Assembly: GCF_000993785.3 (NCBI RefSeq)
Contig: NZ_CP009922.3
Coordinates: forward strand, 434,001 to 498,000
Direction of reading: 5' to 3'
DNA length: 64,000 nucleotides
DNA from: Streptomyces xiamenensis
GTDB taxonomy: Bacteria; Actinomycetota; Actinomycetes; Streptomycetales; Streptomycetaceae
Each line of letters opens with the position of its first letter. Positions within the stretch are counted from its first letter, which is position 1. Both the position numbers and the translations under genes were made by a program. Positions 10,637-41,710 of the stretch are shown one piece after another. The notes under the pieces are model-generated. The model searched no databases. It was given only the letters and a program-made list of their open reading frames with translations, and had not been told where the DNA came from.

Positions 10637-10709
<73 letters not shown>

Positions 10710-10731
10710 CGAAGGGGGCCTGGCCCCCTCC

Positions 10732-10802
10732 GGTGGAGTGGCCGAGAGGCGAGGCAACGGCCTGCAAAGCCGTCTACACGGGTTCAAATCCCGTCTCCAC
10801 CT
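10732..10802 (+). tRNA. tRNA-Cys(GCA)
   Basis: 71 nt. The acceptor is GGTGGAG/CTCCACC and the anticodon arm is ACGGC-CTGCAAA-GCCGT (anticodon GCA). The T-loop is TTCAAAT and the discriminator is T. Second gene of the cluster. Confidence 0.96.
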
Positions 10803-10803
10803 C

Positions 10804-10875
10804 GGACGATTAGCTCAGCGGGAGAGCGCTTCCCTGACACGGAAGAGGTCACTGGTTCAATCCCAGTATCGTCCA
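10804..10875 (+). tRNA. tRNA-Val(GAC), copy 1
   Basis: 72 nt. The acceptor is GGACGAT/ATCGTCC and the anticodon arm is CTTCC-CTGACAC-GGAAG (anticodon GAC). It begins 1 nt after tRNA-Cys. Confidence 0.96.
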
Positions 10876-10898
10876 CTGGGTCCTTAACGGGCCTTCCC

Positions 10899-10970
10899 GC
10901 GCGATTAGCTCAGCGGGAGAGCGCTTCCCTGACACGGAAGAGGTCACTGGTTCAATCCCAGTATCGCGCA
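10899..10970 (+). tRNA. tRNA-Val(GAC), copy 2 (variant acceptor stem)
   Basis: 72 nt, identical to copies 1 and 3 except for the acceptor stem, which is GCGCGAT/ATCGCGC. Pairs 2:71 and 3:70 are changed and both changes are compensated. The anticodon is GAC. Confidence 0.96.
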
Positions 10971-10989
10971 CGCGAGATCAGCGTCACAC

Positions 10990-11061
10990 GGACGATTAGC
11001 TCAGCGGGAGAGCGCTTCCCTGACACGGAAGAGGTCACTGGTTCAATCCCAGTATCGTCCA
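10990..11061 (+). tRNA. tRNA-Val(GAC), copy 3
   Basis: 72 nt, identical in sequence to copy 1, with acceptor GGACGAT/ATCGTCC and anticodon GAC. Last gene of the cluster, followed by a strong hairpin. Confidence 0.96.
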
Positions 11062-11069
11062 CCACCGGC

Positions 11070-28884: not shown

Positions 28885-30711
28885 TCACGCTACCGGTGCG
28901 GCCCGCGGTGCGGCCCAGGCGGCGGCACACAGCGCGTGCGCGGCGCGGTCCCCGTAGTGGGCGGCGGCCAGCCAGGCGAGGGCGAACCGTTCGGCGTCCG
29001 CGGGCCGCAGCCGGCCGAAGACGTCACGGGTACGGTCGGCGGCCGCCCGGTGCAGTGCGGTGAGGAGTTCGGCGGCGGTGGACAGACCGGCGTGCCGCAG
29101 GCGCTGACGGTCCGTCTCGGTGCTGCCGGGCAGGGCGACGGCGGACCGGCCGGCGGCGAGCGCGGCCTGGACGCGGCGGTGCAGCAGATGCAGGGGCGCG
29201 GGGGCCGCCTCCCGCAGGTCGGCGGGCGGGGCGGGGGTGGCGCCGGCACCGGGCAGGTCGGCGCGGCGCAGCCGGTCGTAACCGAGATCGACCGGTCCGC
29301 ACGGGCCCTCGCCCGCGGCGGCCCCGGGGACGGGGCCGGCCGCGAGCAGCCGCAGCCGGGGGTGGTCGGCGGGGACCAGCCGGGCGATGACGCGCAGGCG
29401 CAGCCCGGGGGCGGCCGCCAGCAGCCGCAGGTTGTCCCGGTGGGCCAGGCCGCGGTGTTCGTCCCCGGGGGCGATGCGGACGGTCAGCCCGGCGCAGTCG
29501 GCCGCCAGGACATCGGGGGCGCCCGTCTCGCGCACCGGGCCGAGCACGGTGAGGTCGGTGAAGACCAGACCGGCGGCGGAGGTGGGGTCGGGGTCATCGA
29601 GGGCGCGGGTGATCTGGTCGGGGAGCGGCACCTCCCACAGGGCGGCGACGGGTTCGGCGTGCCAGGGGGCGCCTTCGGCCCGCACGGCGCGTACGCCCCG
29701 GCCGGCGCCCAGCCTGCCGTCCGGGGAGACGGTGGCGCCGGAGACGACGAGTCCGCCCCGGGCCAGCTCGCGGTGGGTGCAGGAGGCGTCACCGAGCCGC
29801 ACGGTGTAGCCGGCCGCGTCCGCCGCGCGGCGGGCGCCGCCGGGGGCCACGTCGGTGAGGGCGAACAACTGCCCGTCCGTTCCCAGGACCCAGGTGACCA
29901 CCCCGGCGTGGCCGCTGCGGGCGAGCACCGGCTCGCAGCACAGGCCGTACAGCCGCAGGGAACCGCCGGGCGTGTAGGGGCGGCGGGCGGTACCGCGCAG
30001 GGCGGCGAGGGAGGTGCCGGAGGGCGCGGCCGGGCGGCGCAGGGCATGACAGACCATCAGCAGCTCGCGGACGGTGGCGGTCAGCTCGGCGAGCCGGTGG
30101 CCGGGGTCGGCGGCGCGGGCGGCGCGCAGGCCGTTGACGGTGGCGATCGCGAGGGTGGCGGGGCGGTGCAGGCCGGTGAGGCGGGCGGTGTGCGCGGCGT
30201 GCAGCAGTTCGGCCTGGACGAGCGCTCCGGCCCCCTCGATCCCGGCCTCCAGCGCGGCGGCCCCGGCCCGCCACAGGGCAGTGGCGGCGGCGCGCTGGTC
30301 CGGGTCGGGGACCGCCGGCTCCGCGTCGCCCGGGGCCGGCCCGGCCGGGGCGGGCTGCGCGGCAGGAGCGGCGGGGGCCTCCGGGGCTTCTCCCGGGGGG
30401 ACCGGCTCGGCCACCGGAGCGGCGGTGGCGACGGCGGCCCGGTGCACACAGTCGGGGGCCAGCAGACAGCCGCAGCGGATGGCGTCGGTGGCGGCGACGG
30501 TGCCGGTGGGGGCGTGGAGTTCGAGCGTGGTGTCGTCGTCGACGGCGATGCGCACGGTATTCCCCTCCCGTGTTCTGGGACGGGCGGCGAGCTTCGCGGC
30601 GGCGGCGTCGAGCCGCTTGCGCAACCGTGGGCTGAGGGTGTGCGCCAGCTGGGCGGTGACCTCGGGGGCGACGGGTGGCAGCGCGATGTCGGCGAGGGCG
30701 GGATCGGTCAT
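28885..30711 (-). CDS. SWIM zinc-finger protein, 608 aa
   Basis: The SWIM motif CxCx5CxH is at residues 80-90 (Cys80, Cys82, Cys88, His90), preceded by a beta-rich stretch (NTVRIAVDDDTTLELHAP). A Pro/Ala-rich linker follows, then a helical region and a long C-terminal domain without a family I can name. SWIM fingers bind nucleic acid or protein. In E. coli the counterpart in the yeh cluster is YehQ. ATG at 30711 has GGAG seven nt upstream. It lies 85 nt after the DUF5682-VWA gene on the same strand. Role inferred from context only. Confidence 0.85.
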   Translation of the reverse strand: MTDPALADIALPPVAPEVTAQLAHTLSPRLRKRLDAAAAKLAARPRTREGNTVRIAVDDDTTLELHAPTGTVAATDAIRCGCLLAPDCVHRAAVATAAPVAEPVPPGEAPEAPAAPAAQPAPAGPAPGDAEPAVPDPDQRAAATALWRAGAAALEAGIEGAGALVQAELLHAAHTARLTGLHRPATLAIATVNGLRAARAADPGHRLAELTATVRELLMVCHALRRPAAPSGTSLAALRGTARRPYTPGGSLRLYGLCCEPVLARSGHAGVVTWVLGTDGQLFALTDVAPGGARRAADAAGYTVRLGDASCTHRELARGGLVVSGATVSPDGRLGAGRGVRAVRAEGAPWHAEPVAALWEVPLPDQITRALDDPDPTSAAGLVFTDLTVLGPVRETGAPDVLAADCAGLTVRIAPGDEHRGLAHRDNLRLLAAAPGLRLRVIARLVPADHPRLRLLAAGPVPGAAAGEGPCGPVDLGYDRLRRADLPGAGATPAPPADLREAAPAPLHLLHRRVQAALAAGRSAVALPGSTETDRQRLRHAGLSTAAELLTALHRAAADRTRDVFGRLRPADAERFALAWLAAAHYGDRAAHALCAAAWAAPRAAPVA

Positions 30712-30796
30712 CACGGGTCTCCGGCGAGGACGGGAAGGGAGCGGGGGCAGGGGACGGCGGCAGGGTGGCCGGGGGCCGGGCGGGCGGTGGTCCGGG

Positions 30797-33700
30797 TCAC
30801 CGGATCTTCTCCCCCACCCAGCGGGCGAGTTCCAGCGGACTGACGGCGGCGATGGGCATCCCGGCCGCGACCAGCTGCCCCGCCGTGCCCGTGCTGTAGC
30901 GGGGGCGCCCGGTGTCGTCCAGGCTGGCGCAGCCCAGCAGATGGCAGCCGGAGTCCACCAGCGCGCGCACCTCGGCGAGCAGCCCGCCCAGGGGGTAGCC
31001 CTCCTCGAAGTCGCTGACCACCACGACCAGGGTGCGGGACGGCACGGTGACCAGACTCCTGGCGTGCCGCAGTCCCGCGGCGATGTGGGTGCCGCCGCCG
31101 ATCCGTACTTCGAGGAGCAGGCCGAGCGGGTCGTGCACCTGGTCGGTGAAGTCGATGACCTCGGTGGAGAAGGCCAGGAAGTGGGTGCTCAGCGCGGGCA
31201 CCCCGGCCAGGATGGACGCGGTGAGCGCGGACCAGACGGTGGACGCCTCCATGGAGCCGGAGACATCGGTGACCAGGATCAGCCGCCAGTCGGCGGAGCG
31301 CCGGGCGCGGCTGCGGAAGACCGGGCGCTCCGGCACGAGCTGGACCCGGCCGCCGGGGCCGCGGTGTGCGGTGCCGAGGTTGGCGCGTACGGTCCTGGCC
31401 AGGTCGAGCCCGCCGCCGGGGCGCCGGCTCGGCCGGGGCAGGGCGGTCCCGGTGAGGGCCGGACGCAGCTGGGTGGCCAGTTGCCGGGTCAGCTCCTCGA
31501 CCAGCTTCCGGACCAGGGGCCGCAGGGCGGCCAGCCGGGCCTCGGGGAGGCCGCCCGCGTGCCGCAGTACGGTGCGCAGCAGGTCCACGGAGGGCCGGGC
31601 CCGGTCGGGGTCGAGCGCGAACACGGCGTCCGCACGCCCGGCCGCGACGGCGGCGGCCAGGACCTCCTCGCGGACGCCGGGGCCGAACAGGGCGGCGAGT
31701 TCACCGGCCCACTCGCGCACCCCCGGGTAGGCGGCCTCGCGTCCGCCGCCGGTGCCGTGACCGCCGACCAGATCGCCGCCCGCGCCTTCGCCGCGGCCCG
31801 CCCCGTACAGCTCGTCCAGTGCGGTGGCCGCCGCCCGCGCCCGCGCGGGCAGGCGTTCGGCCTCCCGCCCCAGCACGAGGCGCCAGCGGTCGTGCGGAAG
31901 GATCGCCCGCTCGCCCATTGGGCAACCGGCGGCCCTCGTGCCGGCGGCGGCTGCTGTCCGGTCCGTGGCCGCGCCGGGCTGGGATGCTCCGCTTCCGGCG
32001 GCGACCGCGATCGGGCCCCCACCCGGGCCACCGGCGTCACACGGGGCCGTGTCGCCGTTCCCCGTGAGCGGGGACGGGCCCGCGAACGCCCCGGAGTGGT
32101 CGCCGGTGGCCGTCGCGGCACCGGCCATGGCAGCCCCGTGGACAGCGGGACCGTCCGGGCCGGTGCCCCGCTCCCCCGCTCCCGCCGGTGTACCGGTGCC
32201 GGTCGTGGCTCCCGTCGCCGTGCCGTCCCGGGCACCGGCCGTGGCGGCCCGCTGCGCGGGCGCTCGCGGGGCGGGGACCGCGGCCGGCGTGGCGACGGTC
32301 GCGGGTGGCAGCAGGTCCAGGACGGCCAGTGCCGCACGGGCGGCCAGGTCGGCGGCCGTCCAGCGGGCCAGGGCGGTGGGGTCGGTGTCGGGCAGTGTGG
32401 CGAGTGGGCCGCCGAGTTCGTCCTCCACGGCCGCCAGCAGCCGGTCCCGGGCGGCCGGGCTGAGGGTGTCGAAGCCGCCGCGCAGGGCCGGGAGGCGCTC
32501 CAGGAAAGGCTGGTCGGGCAGTTCGACCACCCGCTCCAGCAGCGGCGTGAGTGCCTGCGGCGCGGTCTCCAGCAGCGGGCCCGCCGCCGTCAGCAGGCCC
32601 GTCAGCCGTGCGGTGAGTGCCGCCCGGCCCTCTGGGGTCGTCGCGGTGTCCACCCAGGACGCCACCCGCTCCCCCAGGTCACCCGGCCGCTGCTGCCCCA
32701 GGAGCACCCGCACCGCGTGCGCCGCCCCGGACATGAGCGGCGAGCCGTCCCGGGCCAGCCGGGCGAGCGCGTCGGTGAGCCGCAGTCCGCCGGACGCGTC
32801 CGCGCGGTGGGCCAGTTCCAGCAAGGCGCGGGCGTCGGCCGGGTCCTCGGAACCGGTCAGGCCGTCCAGCTGGCGCACCGCCGCCCCGGTCAGCAGTTCC
32901 ACGGTCGCTGCGGTGGATGCGGCCCCGTCGTCCGGAGCGGCCAGCCGGTCCAGCAGGGTGAGCGCGGCCAGCAGTTCGGGCAGGGTGCCGGAGGCGGGGA
33001 CGATCCCGGCGGTCTCGGCGAGCCGTTCCGCCGTCAGGGCGCTCAGGTCGCACGCGGCGGCCTCCTCGAGACCGGCGATCACCTGGGCTGCGGTCGGGCC
33101 GCCCGCCGCCAGCTCGGTACGGTGCCGGGCCCGCAGGGTGCCCTCGGCGGCCTGGGCGGGGGTGACCCCGCGGATCCCGGCGGCGACCAGCATCGCCGCG
33201 GTGGCCGGGGTCCAGGCCACGTGCCAGCGGGTGGTGACGGCCTCGGCGCCGCCCGCCCCGCTGACCTCGCGCTCGGTCGCGTACGGGATGCCGCACACCG
33301 TGAGCCGGCGCAGCAGCAGTTCGCGGCGCCGGTCGCGCGCCGAGCGGCGCGGATCCAGGCGCAGTTCGCGCTCGGCCCGGCCGCCGGCACCGTCGGGCCC
33401 CGGCAGTCCGAGGTCGGCGAGCTCGCGTTCCACGGCCGGGCCGAGGCCACCGCGTGGGGCGTCCGGGGTGGGCCGTCCCGTGCGGTCACCGACCAGGACG
33501 TGTTCCAGTGCGCGGGAGACCGCCCGGCCGCGCCCCAGGGGCTCGCCCTGGGCGAGGGTGCTCTGGACGGCCTCGAGGAGTTCGCCGCGCCCCGCCGCCG
33601 GCAGTCCGCGCAGCCGGGCGAGGTCGGTGGCCAGCCGGATGATCTCCGTGGCGTCCGCCGGCCCGCTGGGATGGTCCTGGGCGCGCAGCCGGGCGCAGAT

Positions 33701-34645
33701 CCGCACGGCGGTGCGAGTGAGGGCCTCGGCCAGCTCCTGCGGGTCGCCGCCCGCCGCCAGCACCTGGTGCTGCCATTCGGGGTCGCGGATACCGGCGGGG
33801 TAGCCGGAGCGTTCGTCCAGCAGGGCGTAGGTGTACGGGATGAGGGAGACGGTCCACGGCGGTGCGGCGGCGGCTGTCGGTGACGGGCCCGGATCGGGCT
33901 CCGGCTCGGGGGCCCGTACGGCGGTGGCGGTGAGGGCGGGTGCGTGGAAGGCGCCGATCACGGCCGCCACCCGGTGCCCCGCCTCCGCGGCCCCGGCCAG
34001 CCCGGACCGCATCCACCGTTCCCTGTGCAGGTCGAGCGGGTCGACCCCGGCGCCGTCCTCGGCGTCCCGGCGCAGCGCCCAGCCGGCCAGCAGCGCCGCG
34101 CGGCGCACTGCCTCGGGGCTCGATCCGGGGGCGCCGACCTCGACCAGCCGGTCCCACAGGTCGTCGCTGTCGCGCCCGGTGAGCCGGGCCCGCATGGCGT
34201 GTTCGAGTCCGGGGCGGCCGGTGCCGGTGCGGCGCGGGTGCCGCCAGGCGGGGTCGCTCAGCGGCAGGTCGGCGGCGACGGCGGGGACGCCCCGGCGGGC
34301 GGCCCAGCGCAGGGCCACCAGCTCGGGCGAGAAATCGGCGAAGGGGTAGAACGCGGGGCCGGTGATGCCGGTGCCGTCCGCGGGGTGCGGGGGCACGGCG
34401 GCCAGGGCCACCGGCGCGTGGGTCCGCGGGTCGGCGAGCCAGGGCAGCCAGTCCTGGAGGTCGGCCGGGAGTTCGACGTGCAGCACGTCGGGTTCGGCCG
34501 CGTCCAGCAGGGCGGGCAGCGCCGTCGCCAGCGACGGCGCGTGGTGCCGTACGCCGACCAGCAGGGCACCGGCCGGGTCGGTCAGCTCGGCGAGGACGTC
34601 CCGGGCCCGGGCGGCGTCCGGGCCGCCGTCCGTCGTGCGGGTCAT
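30797..34645 (-). CDS. DUF5682-VWA fusion protein, 1282 aa
   Basis: Residues 1 to about 780 resemble DUF5682 (YehM-like): LLVGVRHHAPSLATAL, HVELPADLQDWLPWL and AVIGAFHAPAL. A Gly/Ala/Thr-rich linker spans about 785-905. From about 910 a VWA module (YehP-like) begins with RWRLVLGREAE and ends in a von Willebrand A domain. Its metal-ion site is DVSGSM (Asp1127), with the distal Thr in GGGTHIA and Asp in VVVSDFEEG. The frame is continuous. An internal ATG at 31918 has no ribosome site, so a true fusion is likely. ATG at 34645 lies 2 nt after the MoxR stop, so translation is coupled. Confidence 0.87.
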   Translation of the reverse strand: MTRTTDGGPDAARARDVLAELTDPAGALLVGVRHHAPSLATALPALLDAAEPDVLHVELPADLQDWLPWLADPRTHAPVALAAVPPHPADGTGITGPAFYPFADFSPELVALRWAARRGVPAVAADLPLSDPAWRHPRRTGTGRPGLEHAMRARLTGRDSDDLWDRLVEVGAPGSSPEAVRRAALLAGWALRRDAEDGAGVDPLDLHRERWMRSGLAGAAEAGHRVAAVIGAFHAPALTATAVRAPEPEPDPGPSPTAAAAPPWTVSLIPYTYALLDERSGYPAGIRDPEWQHQVLAAGGDPQELAEALTRTAVRICARLRAQDHPSGPADATEIIRLATDLARLRGLPAAGRGELLEAVQSTLAQGEPLGRGRAVSRALEHVLVGDRTGRPTPDAPRGGLGPAVERELADLGLPGPDGAGGRAERELRLDPRRSARDRRRELLLRRLTVCGIPYATEREVSGAGGAEAVTTRWHVAWTPATAAMLVAAGIRGVTPAQAAEGTLRARHRTELAAGGPTAAQVIAGLEEAAACDLSALTAERLAETAGIVPASGTLPELLAALTLLDRLAAPDDGAASTAATVELLTGAAVRQLDGLTGSEDPADARALLELAHRADASGGLRLTDALARLARDGSPLMSGAAHAVRVLLGQQRPGDLGERVASWVDTATTPEGRAALTARLTGLLTAAGPLLETAPQALTPLLERVVELPDQPFLERLPALRGGFDTLSPAARDRLLAAVEDELGGPLATLPDTDPTALARWTAADLAARAALAVLDLLPPATVATPAAVPAPRAPAQRAATAGARDGTATGATTGTGTPAGAGERGTGPDGPAVHGAAMAGAATATGDHSGAFAGPSPLTGNGDTAPCDAGGPGGGPIAVAAGSGASQPGAATDRTAAAAGTRAAGCPMGERAILPHDRWRLVLGREAERLPARARAAATALDELYGAGRGEGAGGDLVGGHGTGGGREAAYPGVREWAGELAALFGPGVREEVLAAAVAAGRADAVFALDPDRARPSVDLLRTVLRHAGGLPEARLAALRPLVRKLVEELTRQLATQLRPALTGTALPRPSRRPGGGLDLARTVRANLGTAHRGPGGRVQLVPERPVFRSRARRSADWRLILVTDVSGSMEASTVWSALTASILAGVPALSTHFLAFSTEVIDFTDQVHDPLGLLLEVRIGGGTHIAAGLRHARSLVTVPSRTLVVVVSDFEEGYPLGGLLAEVRALVDSGCHLLGCASLDDTGRPRYSTGTAGQLVAAGMPIAAVSPLELARWVGEKIR

Positions 34646-34647
34646 GC

Positions 34648-35838
34648 TCAGTCCTCCAGTACGGCGCGCAGGTCCCACAGGGTGCGCCAGGTGGTGGCGC
34701 CCGCCTCGGCGCGCCGCCGCACCGCGCCGTCCCAGTAGCCGAGCAGCCGGGCGGCGTCGGCGGGGTCGTCCTTGCGGACGACGCCCAGCAGATGGCCGGG
34801 GAGCAGCCGCAACGGGTCGCGGTCGGCGGGGAAGTAGGCGGCGGCCAGGCCCAGGGCGGTGGCCACGGACACGGCTTCGGCGGTGCTCATCACGGTGGAC
34901 GGGCGTTCCACCTCCCAGCCCTCGGCCGTGCGGCCGCCGCGCAGTTCGCGGAAGGCGGTGACCAGGACTTCGAGGACCGCGTCGTCGACGCCGTAGCGGG
35001 CGCCGGTGCGTTCGACGGCGGCCCGGGACTTGCGGCGGACCAGTTCGGTCTCGGTGTCGAGGTCGGAGATGGGGCCGATGGTCTCGAAGTTGAAGCGCCG
35101 TTTGAGGGCGGCGGACATCTCCGAGACACCCTTGTCGCGCAGGTTGGCGGTGGCGATGAGGGTGAAGCCGGGGGCGGCGTGGAGTTGGGCGTCCGGTCCG
35201 CCGGCGAGTTCGGGTACGGCGACGCGCCGTTCGGACAGCAGGGAGACCAGGGCGTCCTGCACCTCGGGCAGGCAGCGGGTGATCTCCTCGACGCGGGCCA
35301 CCGCGCCGGTGGTCATGGCGCTGAGGACCGGTGAGGGCACCAGGGCGGAGCGGCTGGGGCCCTGGGCCAGCAGCAGGGCGTAGTTCCAGCCGTACTTGAG
35401 CTGGTCCTCGGTGGTGCCCGCCGTGCCCTGGACGGTCAGCGCGCTGGTGCCGCAGACGGCGGCGGCCAGCAGCTCGGAGAGCAGGGACTTGGCGGTACCC
35501 GGTTCGCCGACCAGCAGCAGCCCGCGTTCGCCCGCGAGGGTGATGACGCAGCGTTCGACGAGGGCGCGCTCCCCGACGAACTTCTGCTCGATGACCAGCC
35601 GGCGCGGCAGCCCTTCCGGGACATCGGCGGCGTCGGCCGGCAGGGTGAGCGACTGCCCGGCGCTGCCCATCACGAAGGTGACCGCGGCCTGCGGGGTGAG
35701 CCGCCAGCCGGGCGGGCGCGGGCCGGTGTCGTGCGCGGCCAGGAAGGCGAGTTCGGTGGCGTACCGGTCCTCCGGCGGGACGATCTGCCGCTGTTCGGCG
35801 GCGGGGCCCGTAGGGGTGGCGGTGGTGGCGCTGGTCAT
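34648..35838 (-). CDS. MoxR-family AAA+ ATPase, 396 aa
   Basis: AAA+ ATPase of the MoxR class (YehL-like). Walker A is GEPGTAKS (about residues 110-117) and the Walker B-like segment is ARVEEITR. Sensor 1 lies in LIATANLRDKG, and there is an arginine-finger-like stretch SAALKRRFNFE. The C-terminal lid domain is present. MoxR ATPases typically work with VWA proteins to remodel or mature a target. The ATG overlaps the stop of the 1675-aa gene (ATGA), and the VWA gene follows after 2 nt, so the three are made together. Confidence 0.93.
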   Translation of the reverse strand: MTSATTATPTGPAAEQRQIVPPEDRYATELAFLAAHDTGPRPPGWRLTPQAAVTFVMGSAGQSLTLPADAADVPEGLPRRLVIEQKFVGERALVERCVITLAGERGLLLVGEPGTAKSLLSELLAAAVCGTSALTVQGTAGTTEDQLKYGWNYALLLAQGPSRSALVPSPVLSAMTTGAVARVEEITRCLPEVQDALVSLLSERRVAVPELAGGPDAQLHAAPGFTLIATANLRDKGVSEMSAALKRRFNFETIGPISDLDTETELVRRKSRAAVERTGARYGVDDAVLEVLVTAFRELRGGRTAEGWEVERPSTVMSTAEAVSVATALGLAAAYFPADRDPLRLLPGHLLGVVRKDDPADAARLLGYWDGAVRRRAEAGATTWRTLWDLRAVLED

Positions 35839-38800
35839 CGGCGGCCCTTCCTGGTGGCACGGGTGGTGAGTTCCTCGAAGGCGGGCGCGTCGCCCCCGGT
35901 GGCACGGGCCCAGGCGCTGCGGAACAGCGCGGGCACCGGGCCCATCGGCAGCGGCAGGTCCCGGGCGGAGCCCGTGTACAGGCTCTGCTTCCAGATCTCC
36001 ATGGGCAGTTGGGGAGCGTCGTGCGGCTGCCAGCCGCCGGGCAGGAACAGGGTGCGTCCGGCGCGCGCCCGCTTGGCCTCGACCACGAGTGCGGTGGCGG
36101 CCAGTTCGGCGCGGGCCCGCTTGTTCCGCGCGGGCTTCCAGCCGCTCCAGCGGGTGAGGTGACGGTCAGTGGGGTCGGGCAGGGCCAGCAGCTGGAGGTA
36201 GAGCGCGGCGGCGTCCCGGCTCAGTGCGTGGGCGGCGGCCACCTCGGTGACGAGGTCGGGGACGCTGAACTCGGGGTCCTGGGCGTACCCGGGTGCCTGT
36301 CCCGCTCCGTGACCGGCGGCGACGGCCGCGGCCACCCCGTCGCCCAGGAGGGTCTGCACGGCCCACAGCGGGCTGTACGCGGCGGAGCCACTGAGCCCGG
36401 TCAGCAGGTCGAGGGCCGGGTCATCCGCTCCCTTGAGCGCGGCCGGGCGCACCAGCACGGTCTCGGTGGAGCCGTAGGAGGGGGCGAGGACGAAGACCTC
36501 GCCGACCGCGGTGAGCCCGTCGGCCCCCGCGCCGCCCTCCTTGGGCAGCCCGTACGCCTGGCGCAGCGCCGCGGACAGCTGCTTGCCGTCCGGCAGCCAG
36601 CTGTATCCGGCCGAGAGCAGCAGTTCCGGGTCGGTGAGGCGCTGCCGCAGCGCGGTCAGGGCGATGGGCAGCGCGGTGCGCAGCGGGTCGCCGTAGGGCA
36701 GGGCGTAGGCGAGGTGCAGCAGCGTCCGGGCAGCACGGGCGAGATCGCCCAGGGTGGGGACGGCGGCGGGGTCCTCGGCCGTCAGCTCGGCGTACGTGCT
36801 GTGGTGCCGTTGGTGGGTGACCAGGCGCTGGGTGGTCGTCCTGCTGATCCAGGGGGTGTTCCGGGGGTTGAGCACGGCCAGGGCGGAGCGCGCCTCGTCG
36901 GCGCCGAGCCGGGTCATGGCGTCCTCGGAGGGCAGCAGCAGGGTGCCGAGGGCACTGTGCCAGTGCCGTGCGGCGGCTGCTGTGTCGGGGCCGGTCTTCC
37001 ACAGCTCCGCGAGCTGCTCGGGGAGCAGCGCGCCGACCACCGCGGGGAGATCGCCGTGGGTGCCGAGGGCGGTCAGCAGTTCGCCGGCGATCTTGGCGGT
37101 GCCCGCTTTGAGGCCGATGGACGCGGCGGTGGCGGCGTCCGGCTCGGCCGGCAGGGCGGCCAGCAGCAGTGCGGCCCGGGTCGGGCCGATCCCGGTGTCG
37201 GCGGCGAACGCGCTGACGGCCTCCGGCTGCCACGGCGCGGGGCCGTGCTCGCGCACCAGCCGGACGAGTTCGGCGGCCCGGTCCGAGGTGAGCCCCGGGT
37301 TCAGCGGCCGTTCCTCGCTGTGGGCGAAGCCGGGGACGGCCTCGAAGGCGCCCCGGGGATCGTGGTCCAGCGCGCTCCAGCAGGCGTGGTCCCGCTCGTG
37401 GCAGCCCGGCCGGCGGCCGAGGAGGACGACGGTGCGCCCGCCGTGGCGCAGCACCTGTCCGCCGCGCTGCTGGTCACGCTCGTCCGCCCGCAGCACGACG
37501 GTACGCAAGGTGCCGGGACCGCCGGTGAGCGGGCCCTCGGCGAAAGCGGACAGCAGCAGCAGCAGCGCTTCGCGTTCGGCGTCCCCGGTGGCCGCGGCGG
37601 TGGCGCGGTAGGCGAGGGCCGGCAGAGCGGGCAGCAGCTGGGGCCAGTTGCCCGCTCCGACGGGGACGATGCACGCGTCGGTGGTCCAGCCGCCGGTCAG
37701 GGACTCCTTGCGGTGCCGCTTGGGCAGCGGCTTGCCGTCGGCGGGGCGGCCGGCGATGACCTGCTGGACGGCGCGGACCTGCTGGAGCGTCAGCCAGGAT
37801 CCCTGCGGGTGGTAGCCGCCTCCGAGGCCGGGGCCGAGTCCGGCGACGGCCCGCACGAGGACGTGCTCCTCCCCGTGCCGCGGACGGTAGTCCTCGAACA
37901 TGGCCAGATCGCGGCGGATCTCGGCGGGCTGTGGAGGCTGGGTGAAGCGCTCCACCGACCGGCCCAGACGTACGGCGCAGGCCACGAGCCCGGCTATGCC
38001 GCGGCGCAGCGCGGGATCGGTGACCTGGGGCAGTGCCCGGGCGACCACGGAGCTGAGGGCGCCGGTCCGCTCCCGGCGCAGTTCTTCCTGCTGGGCGGGG
38101 GTGAGTGTGGTGCCTGCGCGGGCGGCGCGTTCGGCCAGGTCGCGCTCCTCCAGCGTCGCGGTGAGGTCGCTGACCAGGCGTGCCGCGAGTTCGTCGGTCA
38201 GTTTCCGCAGTCCGTGCGAGCCGTGCTCGTCGCGGGCCCGCAGCGCGTGCCAGTGGGCGAGGGGCGGCAGCAGCGGGGTGCCTCCGGCGAAGTCGTCGTT
38301 GCGGCGGCCCTTCTGCGCCCTGCCGAGCGCCCCGGTGCTCCGGTCGGCGCCTTCGTCGTACAGGGTGACGCTGTCGCCCTGGGCGGCGATGACCGGCCGG
38401 GCGCCGCCGGGCAGCAGCAGCGATCCGACCGGCTGCTCACCGGAGCCGTCGGTGACGCCGGTCAGGGAGGCGGTACGGCCGTCGGTGCCGCCGGCCTGCG
38501 CCCGGCCGGTGGCGGCGTCGTACCGGGTCCACCAGCCGAGCAGCGTGCCGTCGGTGCCCAGCGGGGTGTTCTCCAGGCCCGGCGCCATGGGCAGCAGGGT
38601 GGAGTGCTGCTGGTTCAGCTCGCCCGGCCCCTCGGTGGCGTCCGCCAGGAAGGCGGGCAGGGAGCTGCGTCCGCCCTCACCGCTGACCGGGTCGTACTCG
38701 GTCCACACCGCACGGCTGCGGAAGGACAGGCGCCAGTGGCCGGTGCCGTCGCTCATCACGAAGCGTTCGGCCGGCAGCCGGGTGTCGCCGGCGCGCAGGG

Positions 38801-40862
38801 TGCCGGCCCCGGTGGCGGTGCCGCCGCCGGGCAGCGGCAGTGAGGTGGGGGACGGGGCACTCCGCCAGCTGCCGCCCGGGGTGCCGGTGGGGGTGAAGAT
38901 CTCGGCGGGGCGGGCGGACCAGTAGGCGCGGGGCCTGCCGTCGTGCCGCCACTGAACGAGCAGTTCGCCGTCGACGTACCGGAACTGCGGCTTGTACCAG
39001 CTGTCGAGGCGGTCGGGGATGCGCAGTTCGTGGTCGAGCAGGATCTCGTCGGGGCCCACCACCAGGGCCCGCTCGGGGTTGGCCAGGATCAGTGCCGGCC
39101 AGGAGGACTCGTCCATGACGAACCAGCCGTTCTTGCCGGTGGAGCGGCCGGTGGCCTCCAGGCGGCTCATCGCCTCCTCCAGGGCGGGCCAGCCGAGTTC
39201 GTCGATGATGCCGGCGCGCAGGGTGTGGGCGAGCACGGGCGGCAGCGGGTGGGCGGCGACCCGGGCCACCGCCCGCGGGTTCACCTCGGCGGCGACCGGG
39301 CGGAAGGGGAGCAGCGCGCTCAGCACGGACTCGGCGGCGGGCAGTCCTGGGGCGCGGGTGAAGTCCTCGGCGCGGGAGGCCAGCCAGTCGTGGAGCACCC
39401 CGCGCAGGACGGGATGGGCGGCGACGGTGGCCAGCCGCAGGTCCGCCCCGCGGCCGTGGCCGACGCCGCCGACCGCCTGGGACAGCAGCGGGGCGAAGCG
39501 CGCGTCGGCGGCGACGGCGGCCAGGTCGCGGCGGATGTCGGCGGGGAGTCCGAGCCACTGCTCCAGGTCGCGGCCCCATCCGGAGCCGGCGTCGGGGCCT
39601 GCGACCGGGATGCCGCATTCCAGGGCGGTGTCCAGCAGTTCCAGGTCGGTCCGCCCGTAGCGGCCGGCACCGGCGATCGTCACCGGCCGGCCGGCCGAGC
39701 GCAGCCGCCCCGCCATCCGCGCGACCAGCTCGTAGGTGGCGGCCGACCGGCCGGTGCGCTGCCAGCCGGCGTGCAGGTGCGTGGCCCAGCGCGAGAGCCA
39801 GTCGGCGGCGTCCACGCCGGGCCCGGCGCCGTCCTCGTCGACCGTGGTCAGCAGGTCCTGGGCGCCGGCGTCGGCGAGCAGGCTCAGCCACAGGGTGTCG
39901 GCGGCCTCGTCGTTCGCCGTGGCGGGGATGAACTCCAGCAGCCGGCGCCGGATCGCCGGCTCGTCCTGGGCGAGCGAGGCGATCGCCTCCCGGTAGGCCT
40001 GCCAGAAGGACAGGGGGGCGCGGACCACGGCCGGGGAGGCCAGCAGCTCGGTGAGCAGGGCCCGTTCCTCCTGCCGCGCGTCGAGTCCGGCGGCGCGGAC
40101 GAGGGAGCGGGCGTCCTGCGGGAGCGAGGCGTACGGGGGCAGTCCGGCGGCGCAGCGCTCGACCGTGAGCTGCCGGAACTGGGCCCAGGCGGCTTCGGGG
40201 GACAGCCGGGCGGTGAGGTCCTTCAGATGTTCCTTGAGCGCCTTGACGGTGAGGGCGCCCGCGAAGGCGAACTCCAGGAAGACGGCGCGCTGCCGTGCTT
40301 CGTCGACGTCCAGGGAGTGCACCCGTTCGGCGGCGCGGGCCTTGCCGAAGAAGGCGGCGGCGTACTGGCTGTTGTCCTGGGCGAGGAAGACCCGGGCGGC
40401 CTGCTCGTAGAAAGTGGGCAGGAAGTGCGGCGCGGAGCGGTCCAGCCGGGTGCCGAGTTCGTCGAAGCCCTCCTTGGCGGCCCCTGCGCGGGTGGCCGCC
40501 ATGGCGGCGAGCCGTTCGATGTCCTGGACCAGGGCCAGTGCGTGGTGGCCGTTGGCGGGGTCGTTGACCAGGGCCCAGGCGGGGAAGCCCAGCGTCTCCC
40601 GGCGCACCTGGCCGATGGTGCGGGGCTCCCCCTCGCGGGTGAGGCCGAGGAAGTCGAGCGCCAGGTCCTCCGCCTCACCGAGGGTGCCGGGGACGAGCCG
40701 GACGACGGTACGGCCGGGCAGCAGCGGGTGCCGGTAGTCGCGGGCGGTCAGGGTGTCGGTGTCGTCGCCGGTCAGGCTGCCGGGGGGCAGGATGGCGCCC
40801 GCCTCCAGCAGGGCCGCGGGCCGCGGCCCGTTCGTGGTGGTGGTGGTGCCGGTGCCGCTCAT
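35835..40862 (-). CDS. Very large protein of unknown family, 1675 aa, MoxR/VWA locus
   Basis: I recognise no named domain. The N-terminal third is helical and Ala/Leu-rich with a HEAT/TPR-like feel. The middle contains a beta-rich section with repeated short patterns ending in Trp or Tyr (SWYKPQFRYVDGELLVQWRH, GHWRLSFRSRAVWTEYD, LLGWWTRYD) that could be a propeller or WGR-like part. The C-terminal third is again helical. No signal or membrane segment is visible. ATG at 40862 overlaps the DUF4132 stop (ATGA), and its own stop overlaps the MoxR start (ATGA). It is probably the scaffold or target adaptor of the ATPase. Confidence 0.85.
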   Translation of the reverse strand: MSGTGTTTTTNGPRPAALLEAGAILPPGSLTGDDTDTLTARDYRHPLLPGRTVVRLVPGTLGEAEDLALDFLGLTREGEPRTIGQVRRETLGFPAWALVNDPANGHHALALVQDIERLAAMAATRAGAAKEGFDELGTRLDRSAPHFLPTFYEQAARVFLAQDNSQYAAAFFGKARAAERVHSLDVDEARQRAVFLEFAFAGALTVKALKEHLKDLTARLSPEAAWAQFRQLTVERCAAGLPPYASLPQDARSLVRAAGLDARQEERALLTELLASPAVVRAPLSFWQAYREAIASLAQDEPAIRRRLLEFIPATANDEAADTLWLSLLADAGAQDLLTTVDEDGAGPGVDAADWLSRWATHLHAGWQRTGRSAATYELVARMAGRLRSAGRPVTIAGAGRYGRTDLELLDTALECGIPVAGPDAGSGWGRDLEQWLGLPADIRRDLAAVAADARFAPLLSQAVGGVGHGRGADLRLATVAAHPVLRGVLHDWLASRAEDFTRAPGLPAAESVLSALLPFRPVAAEVNPRAVARVAAHPLPPVLAHTLRAGIIDELGWPALEEAMSRLEATGRSTGKNGWFVMDESSWPALILANPERALVVGPDEILLDHELRIPDRLDSWYKPQFRYVDGELLVQWRHDGRPRAYWSARPAEIFTPTGTPGGSWRSAPSPTSLPLPGGGTATGAGTLRAGDTRLPAERFVMSDGTGHWRLSFRSRAVWTEYDPVSGEGGRSSLPAFLADATEGPGELNQQHSTLLPMAPGLENTPLGTDGTLLGWWTRYDAATGRAQAGGTDGRTASLTGVTDGSGEQPVGSLLLPGGARPVIAAQGDSVTLYDEGADRSTGALGRAQKGRRNDDFAGGTPLLPPLAHWHALRARDEHGSHGLRKLTDELAARLVSDLTATLEERDLAERAARAGTTLTPAQQEELRRERTGALSSVVARALPQVTDPALRRGIAGLVACAVRLGRSVERFTQPPQPAEIRRDLAMFEDYRPRHGEEHVLVRAVAGLGPGLGGGYHPQGSWLTLQQVRAVQQVIAGRPADGKPLPKRHRKESLTGGWTTDACIVPVGAGNWPQLLPALPALAYRATAAATGDAEREALLLLLSAFAEGPLTGGPGTLRTVVLRADERDQQRGGQVLRHGGRTVVLLGRRPGCHERDHACWSALDHDPRGAFEAVPGFAHSEERPLNPGLTSDRAAELVRLVREHGPAPWQPEAVSAFAADTGIGPTRAALLLAALPAEPDAATAASIGLKAGTAKIAGELLTALGTHGDLPAVVGALLPEQLAELWKTGPDTAAAARHWHSALGTLLLPSEDAMTRLGADEARSALAVLNPRNTPWISRTTTQRLVTHQRHHSTYAELTAEDPAAVPTLGDLARAARTLLHLAYALPYGDPLRTALPIALTALRQRLTDPELLLSAGYSWLPDGKQLSAALRQAYGLPKEGGAGADGLTAVGEVFVLAPSYGSTETVLVRPAALKGADDPALDLLTGLSGSAAYSPLWAVQTLLGDGVAAAVAAGHGAGQAPGYAQDPEFSVPDLVTEVAAAHALSRDAAALYLQLLALPDPTDRHLTRWSGWKPARNKRARAELAATALVVEAKRARAGRTLFLPGGWQPHDAPQLPMEIWKQSLYTGSARDLPLPMGPVPALFRSAWARATGGDAPAFEELTTRATRKGRR

Positions 40863-41710
40863 GCCCGCTCCTCGCTGCTCTTGATGTCCCGGCCGGCGTA
40901 GAGATCCGCGGCCATGCGCATGCCTTCCGACCAGGCGACCGGTCCGACCTCGCCCAGGGTCAGCGCGGACCCCTCGGCGGTGGTCCAGCTCAGCGGGCCG
41001 GTCTCCGCCTCGTCGTAGCCGGCGTCGCCCAGCCACACCCGGGCCTCGACGGTGCCCCCGTCCTCGAAGACGGGGCAGACCGCCTGGCCGCCGCGCACCC
41101 GGTAGCCGTGCGACACGGCGCGGCCGGCCAGGAAGCGGAAGCGCTGGTAGACGCCGCCGGCGTAGGTGTCCACGGAGTGCGCCGTCGGGTCCTCGACGGT
41201 CCGCCGGAACACTTCGCGGTGCAGCTGTCCCACGCCCTGCCGCAGGTCGAGTTCGGTGGCGAAGTCCCGCAGTTCGCCGAGGTCCTCCAACAGGACCGGG
41301 TGCGGGACACGGATCTGCTCGGGGGTGATGCGGACGCTGTCGCCGTCCAGGTCGACCAGGCCCAGGCCGCGTACGGGGTCGGCGTCCCTGAGGTAACCGG
41401 CCACCACGCCGCCGCTGTCGGTGATGACGAGGTCGCGCAGCGCCGCCCGCCAGGCCGTGTCCGGCCACAGCTCCACGAGGGCGGCGGTGGGCACGGGCAG
41501 GGAGCGGATCATCCAGCGCTCGACCGTGGCCACGCACTCGCGCTGGTGGCGTTCCAGCCACTCCGTGAGCTGCCGCAGCCCGATCACCGCCGGATCGTCC
41601 GCGATCTTCGCGGGGACGGTCTTCAGCTGCCGTCCCTTCGCGTTGCGGCAGATGACCTTGCCGCCGTCGTCGAGCGCCACCTCATAGGCGCCCGCGCTGA
41701 TCCACCCCAT
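40859..41710 (-). CDS. DUF4132-domain protein, 283 aa
   Basis: Matches the C-terminal DUF4132 part of E. coli YehI/MolR-type proteins: GWISAGAYEVALDDG, ADDPAVIGLRQLTEWL, HPVLLEDLGELRDFA, the basic RFLAGRAVSHGYRVRGG, and the terminal VGPVAWSEGMRMAADLYAG. It is much shorter than the roughly 1200-residue enterobacterial proteins; the missing part may be supplied by the next gene (1675 aa). ATG at 41710 has GGGGAG six nt upstream. A second ATG at 41716 abuts the ribosome site and is less likely. First gene of the operon, divergent from an oxidoreductase. Function unknown. Confidence 0.85.
   Translation of the reverse strand: MGWISAGAYEVALDDGGKVICRNAKGRQLKTVPAKIADDPAVIGLRQLTEWLERHQRECVATVERWMIRSLPVPTAALVELWPDTAWRAALRDLVITDSGGVVAGYLRDADPVRGLGLVDLDGDSVRITPEQIRVPHPVLLEDLGELRDFATELDLRQGVGQLHREVFRRTVEDPTAHSVDTYAGGVYQRFRFLAGRAVSHGYRVRGGQAVCPVFEDGGTVEARVWLGDAGYDEAETGPLSWTTAEGSALTLGEVGPVAWSEGMRMAADLYAGRDIKSSEERA

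Follow-up and report, generated by a model that had tools for sequence, protein, structure and literature searches.

Five minus-strand genes of Streptomyces xiamenensis probably encode a divergent relative of the Escherichia coli yeh proteins. They lie at 41710-28885 of a 64,000-nucleotide stretch of NZ_CP009922.3 (434,001-498,000; hereafter the window, in which all coordinates below are counted). The operon is read here, with a probability of about 0.45, as the Streptomyces form of a YehL-type MoxR-VWA machine, one that would remodel and process its clients with a DUF5682 hydrolase. Their sequences show that the products include a MoxR ATPase whose motor motifs are kept and a VWA domain, fused to DUF5682, in which the MIDAS (metal ion-dependent adhesion site)-like motif is intact. 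The predicted fold and conserved residues support a TraB/TIKI-like nature for the first ~250 residues of DUF5682, where a Glu and an Arg accompany two GxxH motifs. In order of transcription the genes are:

40859..41710, minus strand: small DUF4132 protein, 283 residues (PF13569, 97.3 bits, cut-off 27; domain at residues 26-196)
35835..40862, minus strand: the giant, 1675 residues, a probable adaptor or scaffold without a Pfam family (AlphaFold2 model of residues 1-900)
34648..35838, minus strand: YehL-type MoxR AAA+ ATPase, 396 residues (AAA_5, 126.9 bits)
30797..34645, minus strand: DUF5682-VWA fusion, 1282 residues, equivalent to YehM plus YehP in one chain (PF18934, 666 bits; PF05762, 213.9 bits; BLASTP)
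28885..30711, minus strand: SWIM-motif protein, 608 residues, in the position of YehQ (CxCx5CxH at approximately residues 77-97)

A probable TraB/TIKI-like domain in DUF5682

DUF5682 is catalogued as a family of unknown function. Its N-terminal domain very probably adopts the TIKI fold, to judge from the predicted structure. The likeness is a new observation, missed in the earlier note on this DNA, which had been made from the letters alone. The features on which it rests are:

33902..34567, minus strand: TraB/TIKI-like N-terminal domain, approximately residues 27-248 of the fusion (predicted fold, VIA-align)
34544..34555, minus strand: first GxxH motif, G31-H34, followed by H35 (H34 and H35 in 27/27 diverse members, G31 in 25/27)
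34472..34474, minus strand: invariant Glu58, 24 residues past His34 (27/27 diverse members)
34022..34024, minus strand: invariant Arg208, in the helix ahead of the second GxxH (27/27 diverse members, 63/63 fused rows)
33944..33955, minus strand: second GxxH motif, G231-H234 (27/27 diverse members, 63/63 fused rows)

The diverse set comprised 27 domains with 31% mean column identity, in all of which Arg33, His34, His35, Glu58, Ser106, Glu108, Asp126, Trp164, Glu169, Arg192, Arg208, Glu209, Gly231 and His234 are invariant. Among the 63 fused rows, Glu58 is kept in 56 and Gly31, Arg33, His34 and His35 in 53 or 54; the remaining rows are mostly gaps, which probably come from starts called too late. 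In E. coli YehM, the residues equivalent to His34, Glu58, Arg208 and His234 are His11, Glu35, Arg175 and His202. The model of DUF5682 places Glu58 within the second strand (54-60), with His34 coming after the first (28-32) and His234 after the strand at 226-231. Beyond approximately the first 250 residues a helical repeat is predicted.

Structural comparison places the N-terminal part of the model beside a TraB-family protein. VIA-align, which re-ranks the top 1000 matches of Foldseek and compared 965 preselected chains, put 8b6h_DQ first (Z 10.9, root mean square deviation 5.0, 214 aligned, model residues 2-248) and 7w5z_E second (Z 10.3, 213 aligned); both rank above a helical match (Z 8.7) that lies in another part of the model. 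Both 8bqs_DQ and the sequence of 7w5z_E, which entry 8b6h also contains, carry the name 'TraB family protein'; the protein is from Tetrahymena. The name was reached through a search of solved-structure sequences with PrgY, whose own match was weak (E 0.056). In the paper on 8b6h (PMC10060162), a legend counts a TraB-family protein among the parts of Tetrahymena complex IV. Searches of solved-structure sequences with YehM and the domain profile returned no TIKI protein, nor did those with YbaP and L143.

Two GxxH motifs with a conserved Glu and Arg are a pattern of TraB/TIKI proteins, which was checked on PrgY and YbaP. His21 and Glu45 of PrgY (positions counted by hand) are 24 residues apart, the spacing of His34 and Glu58 in DUF5682, and an Arg precedes the second GxxH in both, within ERD in PrgY and RER in the window protein. 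The deep relatives L129, L130 and L141 keep the Glu, RERYM and GAFH and have CHH instead of RHH in the first motif. A His-Glu chemistry is described for TIKI proteins in the accessible part of PMC6254334.

Several results weigh against a TIKI assignment or against activity. Confidence in the DUF5682 model is moderate (pLDDT, predicted local distance difference test, 75.7; pTM, predicted template-modelling score, 0.45), Foldseek of the model gave no match at E ≤ 0.001, with mostly helical repeats in the top rows listed, and the best structural match is a respiratory-complex subunit. Alignment of the domain with EreA-family and YbaP profiles (hhalign) gave 1.3% each, in a comparison whose presumed positive control, EreA with YbaP, also failed (0.3%). 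The Pfam families ChaN/Tiki (best E 0.011) and TraB (0.044) each match just 2/27 members, and 13 unrelated families match one member each at E 0.0054 to 3.6, some of them equally well; this failure lowers the filing of the domain by sequence, not its structural likeness. The loose GxxH-E-R-GxxH pattern, found in 24/27 and 51/52 members, also occurs in 333/3967 other open reading frames (ORFs) and 232/10800 shuffles, and it missed one of three TraB-family proteins. Since its background is 2 to 8% and a true family member escapes it, the motif by itself is only suggestive. Furthermore, DUF5682 has nothing beside its first His that would correspond to the leading Glu of the 2His/2Glu set in Ere and RRSP, and the TIKI member PMT is without catalytic residues, so not all members are enzymes (PMC6254334, in the portion available). 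The odds that the predicted domain is catalytic are about even.

The MoxR motor and its VWA partner

The MoxR protein shows 46% identity to YehL over 382 columns (BLASTP, E 1.4e-91) and thereby falls in the YehL subfamily. That subfamily has been named in print, and YehL is one of two MoxR ATPases in E. coli K-12, according to the part of PMC3893208 available. Scores against the NCBIfam models MadB (33.7 of 475 bits) and GvpN (23.9 of 266.8 bits) are far below the cut-offs. Motifs were read from alignment columns of 63 rows (49 different): Walker A (G-x-P-G-T-[AG]-K-[ST]), sensor 1 (TAN) and RRF are kept in 63/63, and Walker B is E-E-[ILV]-T-R throughout. E-E instead of D-E seems unusual for the Walker B of a MoxR protein.

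The partner domain lies at the C-terminal end of the fusion:

30815..31480, minus strand: CoxE-type VWA domain with the MIDAS-like motif DVSGS (PF05762 at residues 1056-1277, 213.9 bits)

The MIDAS-like pattern D-x-S-[GA]-S is present in 125/125 VWA matches of the loci. The idea of an ATP-driven remodelling machine made of MoxR and VWA, put forward in the earlier note, fits these intact motifs.

In the MoxR tree, which has a midpoint root, bootstraps that had not settled and flagged long branches, proteins of fused sets form one clade (100/100) and E. coli-like proteins another (100/99), the join between them being weak (86/30). The unfused Streptomyces sets group with DUF5691-linked plasmid sets in a separate clade (100/100). 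L129, L130, L140 and L141 make up a deep MoxR clade; in two of its members, L140 and L141, MoxR comes after a pair of hypothetical genes and a VWA gene.

The main rival to a processing machine is a chaperone that inserts a metal or other cofactor and does not cut. MoxR and VWA would then twist a metalloenzyme open for metal or haem, in the manner of NorQ/NorD and CoxD/CoxE, and the TIKI-like domain would bind metal, haem or client. The old molR name is said to link DUF4132 proteins to molybdate, by the title of one study, and the Pfam name of ChaN, which belongs to the TIKI group, marks it as a haem-binding family. Also in favour, the VWA is CoxE-type (213.9 bits), and NorQD drives metal insertion (PMC13036017, text available in part). 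However, this reading gives the invariant His/Glu/Arg/His set nothing to do. Moreover, no metalloenzyme gene recurs beside the sets in nine annotated plasmid stretches inspected by eye, and molybdate genes were unchanged upon induction of a Deinococcus DUF4132 operon in the data seen from PMC8533742. Insertion alone is considered unlikely, and a processing machine is preferred.

DUF4132, the giant and the SWIM-motif protein

The small DUF4132 protein is the sole PF13569 match in the window genome. In hhalign it lines up (83.7%, 251 columns) with columns 882-1158 of an alignment of YehI-like proteins, in their C-terminal part. A YehI-type protein has approximately 1200 residues with DUF4132 near the C-terminus; here only that C-terminal part is seen, as the protein of 283 residues.

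The giant has no Pfam match above cut-off and no NCBIfam match, and a relationship to YehI or DUF5691 is unsupported (hhalign 0.1 and 0.2%). The AlphaFold2 model of residues 1-900 (mean pLDDT 86.0, pTM 0.71; residues 901-1675 lie outside it) predicts a small N-terminal domain, helical repeats at approximately 100-570 and a beta-rich, propeller-like region at approximately 580-850. Structurally, the model comes closest to TPR/Get4-type repeats and to the Nup133 propeller, with Z of 7 to 11, a range in which repeats match by chance and no more than a common arrangement may be meant. The one Foldseek match at E ≤ 0.001, to a chain of a PI3-kinase complex (9mhh_A, TM 0.14), looks like a repeat match. 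The giant is probably an adaptor or scaffold, and the predicted helical-repeat and beta-rich fold suits its earlier description as a candidate scaffold.

DUF4132 and the giant also occur together away from the rest of the set. In S. nigrescens and Embleya (L185:7836-12543 and L186:8137-11649), shorter, more remote relatives of the giant (~31% identity) adjoin a DUF4132 relative, with no match to MoxR, the fusion, the SWIM protein or YehL, M, P or Q within 19 to 21 kb. In Nonomuraea (L187:8095-12990), relatives of both lie in one ORF of 1631 residues without a stop. Because the two are paired alone in two loci and form one ORF in Nonomuraea, they would appear to be one unit; the sequences point to one function split over two chains, which would hold the place of YehI in E. 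coli. The pair may be an independent module.

The SWIM-motif protein scores 11.2 bits against Pfam SWIM, below the cut-off of 19.6, and the CxC...CxH motif is found in 53/57 of its relatives; the four without it look like wrong-frame or wrong-start calls. Similarity to the YehQ set is weak and N-terminal only (hhalign 1.9%). SWIM fingers bind nucleic acid or protein. This property would suit a stress or DNA-damage complex that binds nucleic acid or regulators, with the SWIM and DUF4132 proteins central and ATP-driven remodelling resetting it. A Deinococcus set of SWIM, DUF5691, MoxR, DUF5682 and VWA exists, and an operon with a DUF4132 gene in D. radiodurans is strongly up on depletion of the repressor DdrO (PMC8533742, in the part available), but that gene is not shown as part of a MoxR set. 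In addition, no regulatory site was found at the window locus, where a scan for sigma-70-type promoters only found none. Such a complex is held to be improbable, though a stress role of some kind may apply, and the SWIM protein is assigned here, tentatively, to the processing machine.

Arrangement and coupling of the genes

The five ORFs were recovered on one strand just where the earlier note had placed them, and GC content by codon position agrees with the reading frames of all five. Its account of the first three junctions (ATGA, ATGA and a 2-nucleotide gap) is exact: the DUF4132 gene and the giant overlap by 4 nucleotides, as do the giant and MoxR, and 2 nucleotides separate MoxR from DUF5682 (-4, -4, +2). 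The VWA-SWIM junction measures 82 or 85 nucleotides, set by the choice of SWIM start, an alternative GTG being present at 30714.

In relatives, with starts picked by rule, the 4-nucleotide overlap recurs in 48/72 at the DUF4132-giant junction and in 39/71 at the giant-MoxR junction. The MoxR-DUF5682 junction is -4 in 0/77 and between -40 and +10 in 40/77. At the VWA-SWIM junction 52/63 relatives have a 4-nucleotide overlap, though these genes do not overlap in the window, so all five genes are normally coupled, and the coupling exceeds chance. Elsewhere in the window, at 10637-11064, is a tRNA array, Gly(gcc)-Cys(gca)-Val(gac) x3.

Conservation and distribution

The relatives were the best 80 of 210 from a scan with the MoxR protein, all titled Streptomyces, Kitasatospora, Embleya or Yinghuangia. 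Within these best 80, the closest locus (L003) has a MoxR 95% identical, and the window genome is near S. harbinensis. The complete five-gene set is present in 66/80, the remaining 14 being short loci with 3.3 to 14.1 kb visible. Conservation of gene order outside the strain, which the earlier note had named as a check, is clear from the same order and strand in 65/66 complete sets; in the exception, L045, the SWIM match is split across both strands. Outside the family but within its class, one genome (G204, L125) has the ordered set too. Five Streptomyces plasmids carry relatives of MoxR and the giant, and the whole set was read on one of them. In the ~4 kb of flank visible, window genes flanking the set were met again in at most 6/80 loci; its chromosomal place thus seems to differ among them.

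DUF5682, in any form, is present in 97/101 sampled Streptomyces genomes (96/98 good ones) and in 24/396 genomes across the phylum. The window genome has a single match, the fused copy (G000:C1:465565-468519). A score band of 608-736 bits, which holds the fused loci L104 and L107-L112, is occupied in at least 34/101 genomes, or at least 36 if two split matches are added, as read from scores among the matches listed and not from a gene-by-gene check. For most of the 101 genomes the top-scoring match lies in the higher band, that of the unfused form, and DUF5682 and VWA are unfused in the 11 high-scoring Streptomyces loci inspected (L083-L093).

Seven other sets were read, the gene tables of the plasmid-borne ones being incomplete. 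MoxR and DUF5682 occur in 7/7, an annotated VWA gene in 6/7 (not Methylosinus) and a SWIM gene in 6/7 (not Hymenobacter). DUF5682 and VWA are adjacent separate genes in 6/7, whereas they are fused in the window. The large partner is DUF4132 in the E. coli, Iodobacter and Agrobacterium sets and DUF5691 in those of Deinococcus, Hymenobacter, Methylosinus and Rhizobium. The order SWIM-DUF5691-MoxR-DUF5682 recurs on Deinococcus, Methylosinus and Rhizobium plasmids (L136, L138 and L139), with VWA following in L136 and L139. On the Iodobacter plasmid (L134:2345-20349), two DUF4132 genes lie ahead of the set and a type I restriction set behind it, with insertion sequence (IS) elements. In E. coli, the yehL-yehQ stretch is present in 5301/5426 genomes and at least 80% covered in 5162.

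A viral origin was rejected. One degenerate motif searched in IMG/VR gave 24 stretches, none confirmed as a relative, and the one match in a phage collection was confined to the VWA part.

Defence

The earlier note had offered a conflict response as one possible role; neither that nor a defence role is supported by the observations. Family matches were sought with PADLOC at E ≤ 1e-5 in 128 flank ORFs and in 95 ORFs from 19 of 20 random Streptomyces stretches. The flank ORFs were chosen from 148 in 38 loci (all ORFs of L054, L062, L066, L075 and L076 and two of four of L063 were omitted for length), and ORFs above 700 residues were excluded from both sets. The flank ORFs gave 25 hits and the random ones 21. 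These are hits to member families, several probably on one protein, and not protein counts; they are treated as no enrichment, and a defence island was rejected. Argininosuccinate lyase domains occur in 4/128 flank ORFs.

Against PADLOC-DB the five proteins themselves gave 0/5 credible matches, with one weak hit on MoxR (E 0.0064). General Pfam and PADLOC scans, with no dedicated model run, found no VMAP or effector domain in them. One reading along these lines is an anti-phage or conflict system resembling the vWA-MoxR-VMAP ternary systems, in which the giant or DUF4132 would be the sensor and DUF5682 the effector; it is held to be improbable. In its favour stand the bpMoxR score of MoxR (22.6 bits, below the cut-off of 27), the propeller-like region of the giant, the plasmid-borne sets (one of them beside a type I restriction set) and the flank ORFs of L003-L070 that match mads_2 (two) and mads_3 (one), whose loci were not traced. 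It is opposed by the flank counts and the PADLOC-DB result, by the presence of yehL-yehQ in 5301/5426 E. coli genomes and of DUF5682 in 97/101 Streptomyces, and by the absence of the terms SWIM, YehL, DUF4132, MolR, WGR and DUF5682 from the 2020 eLife paper on vWA-MoxR-VMAP conflict systems.

Proposed mechanism

A processing machine built from these parts might work as follows. The MoxR ring would dock on the VWA domain in the manner of NorQ and NorD and would spend ATP in pulling or twisting a client protein, which the DUF4132-giant unit and the SWIM protein would select and hold. The DUF5682 site on the VWA arm would then hydrolyse a peptide or ester bond of the client. Such a machine would remodel and process, rather than merely insert cofactors as a chaperone. 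The vWA-peptidase fusion of jumbo phages, as reported in the available part of PMC7824862, provides a precedent for a MoxR-VWA-hydrolase plan. A more doubtful extension is that the operon represents a new class of ATP-driven processing protease, in which a MoxR ring acts via VWA on a TIKI-type hydrolase and the adaptors (DUF4132, DUF5691 and the giant) are exchangeable.

The core machine occurs in the majority of the E. coli and Streptomyces genomes sampled, and no function for it was found in the literature searched. With candidate catalytic residues named (YehM His11, Glu35, Arg175 and His202), its job becomes testable. If these residues prove active, a hydrolase would be built into a MoxR machine, and the swapping of large partners would show one core aimed at different clients.

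Comparison with known systems

Literature searches that did not reach most subscription journals showed, among the papers listed, none that names DUF5682, gives the yeh set a function or links MoxR or YehL to TIKI. The likeness to E. coli yehI-yehL-yehM-yehP-yehQ proposed in the earlier note holds for MoxR (46% identity to YehL), for the fusion, which matches YehM (27%) and then YehP (39%), and for the DUF4132 protein, which matches the C-terminus of YehI. It does not extend to the giant, which has no detectable similarity to YehI, and it is weak for the SWIM protein and YehQ (1.9%). By these similarities the set is best described as a divergent form of the E. coli one: both have a YehL-type MoxR, YehM and YehP counterparts, a DUF4132 module and a SWIM-motif protein, but in the window DUF5682 and VWA are fused, and DUF4132 is a small, separate protein encoded ahead of the giant.

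The unfused MoxR-DUF5682-VWA set of Streptomyces has the same core proteins, with a MoxR ~45% identical (L083-L093). It differs in that its MoxR belongs to another main clade (100/100) and its DUF5682 and VWA are separate genes. In L113, one unfused locus read closely, a gene that we take to be DUF5691-like lies nearby and further genes follow, presumably sucCD-like.

NorQ/NorD and RavA/ViaA likewise combine a MoxR AAA+ protein with a VWA partner; to our knowledge, those partners are without a DUF5682-like arm. Closer in plan is the jumbo-phage MoxR-vWA pair, in which the vWA protein is fused to a metallopeptidase (PMC7824862, seen in part). It shares with the window set a hydrolase domain at the N-terminus of the vWA protein, the hydrolase being only a candidate in DUF5682, but the genes are those of phages, and the likeness is one of arrangement.

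Finally, the N-terminal domain of DUF5682 resembles the TIKI/TraB/PrgY/Ere superfamily in its predicted fold, its two GxxH motifs, the PrgY-like spacing of its Glu and the Arg before the second GxxH. It differs from that superfamily in having no significant sequence-profile match and in its setting: a helical repeat and a VWA domain share its chain, and a MoxR ATPase is encoded alongside.

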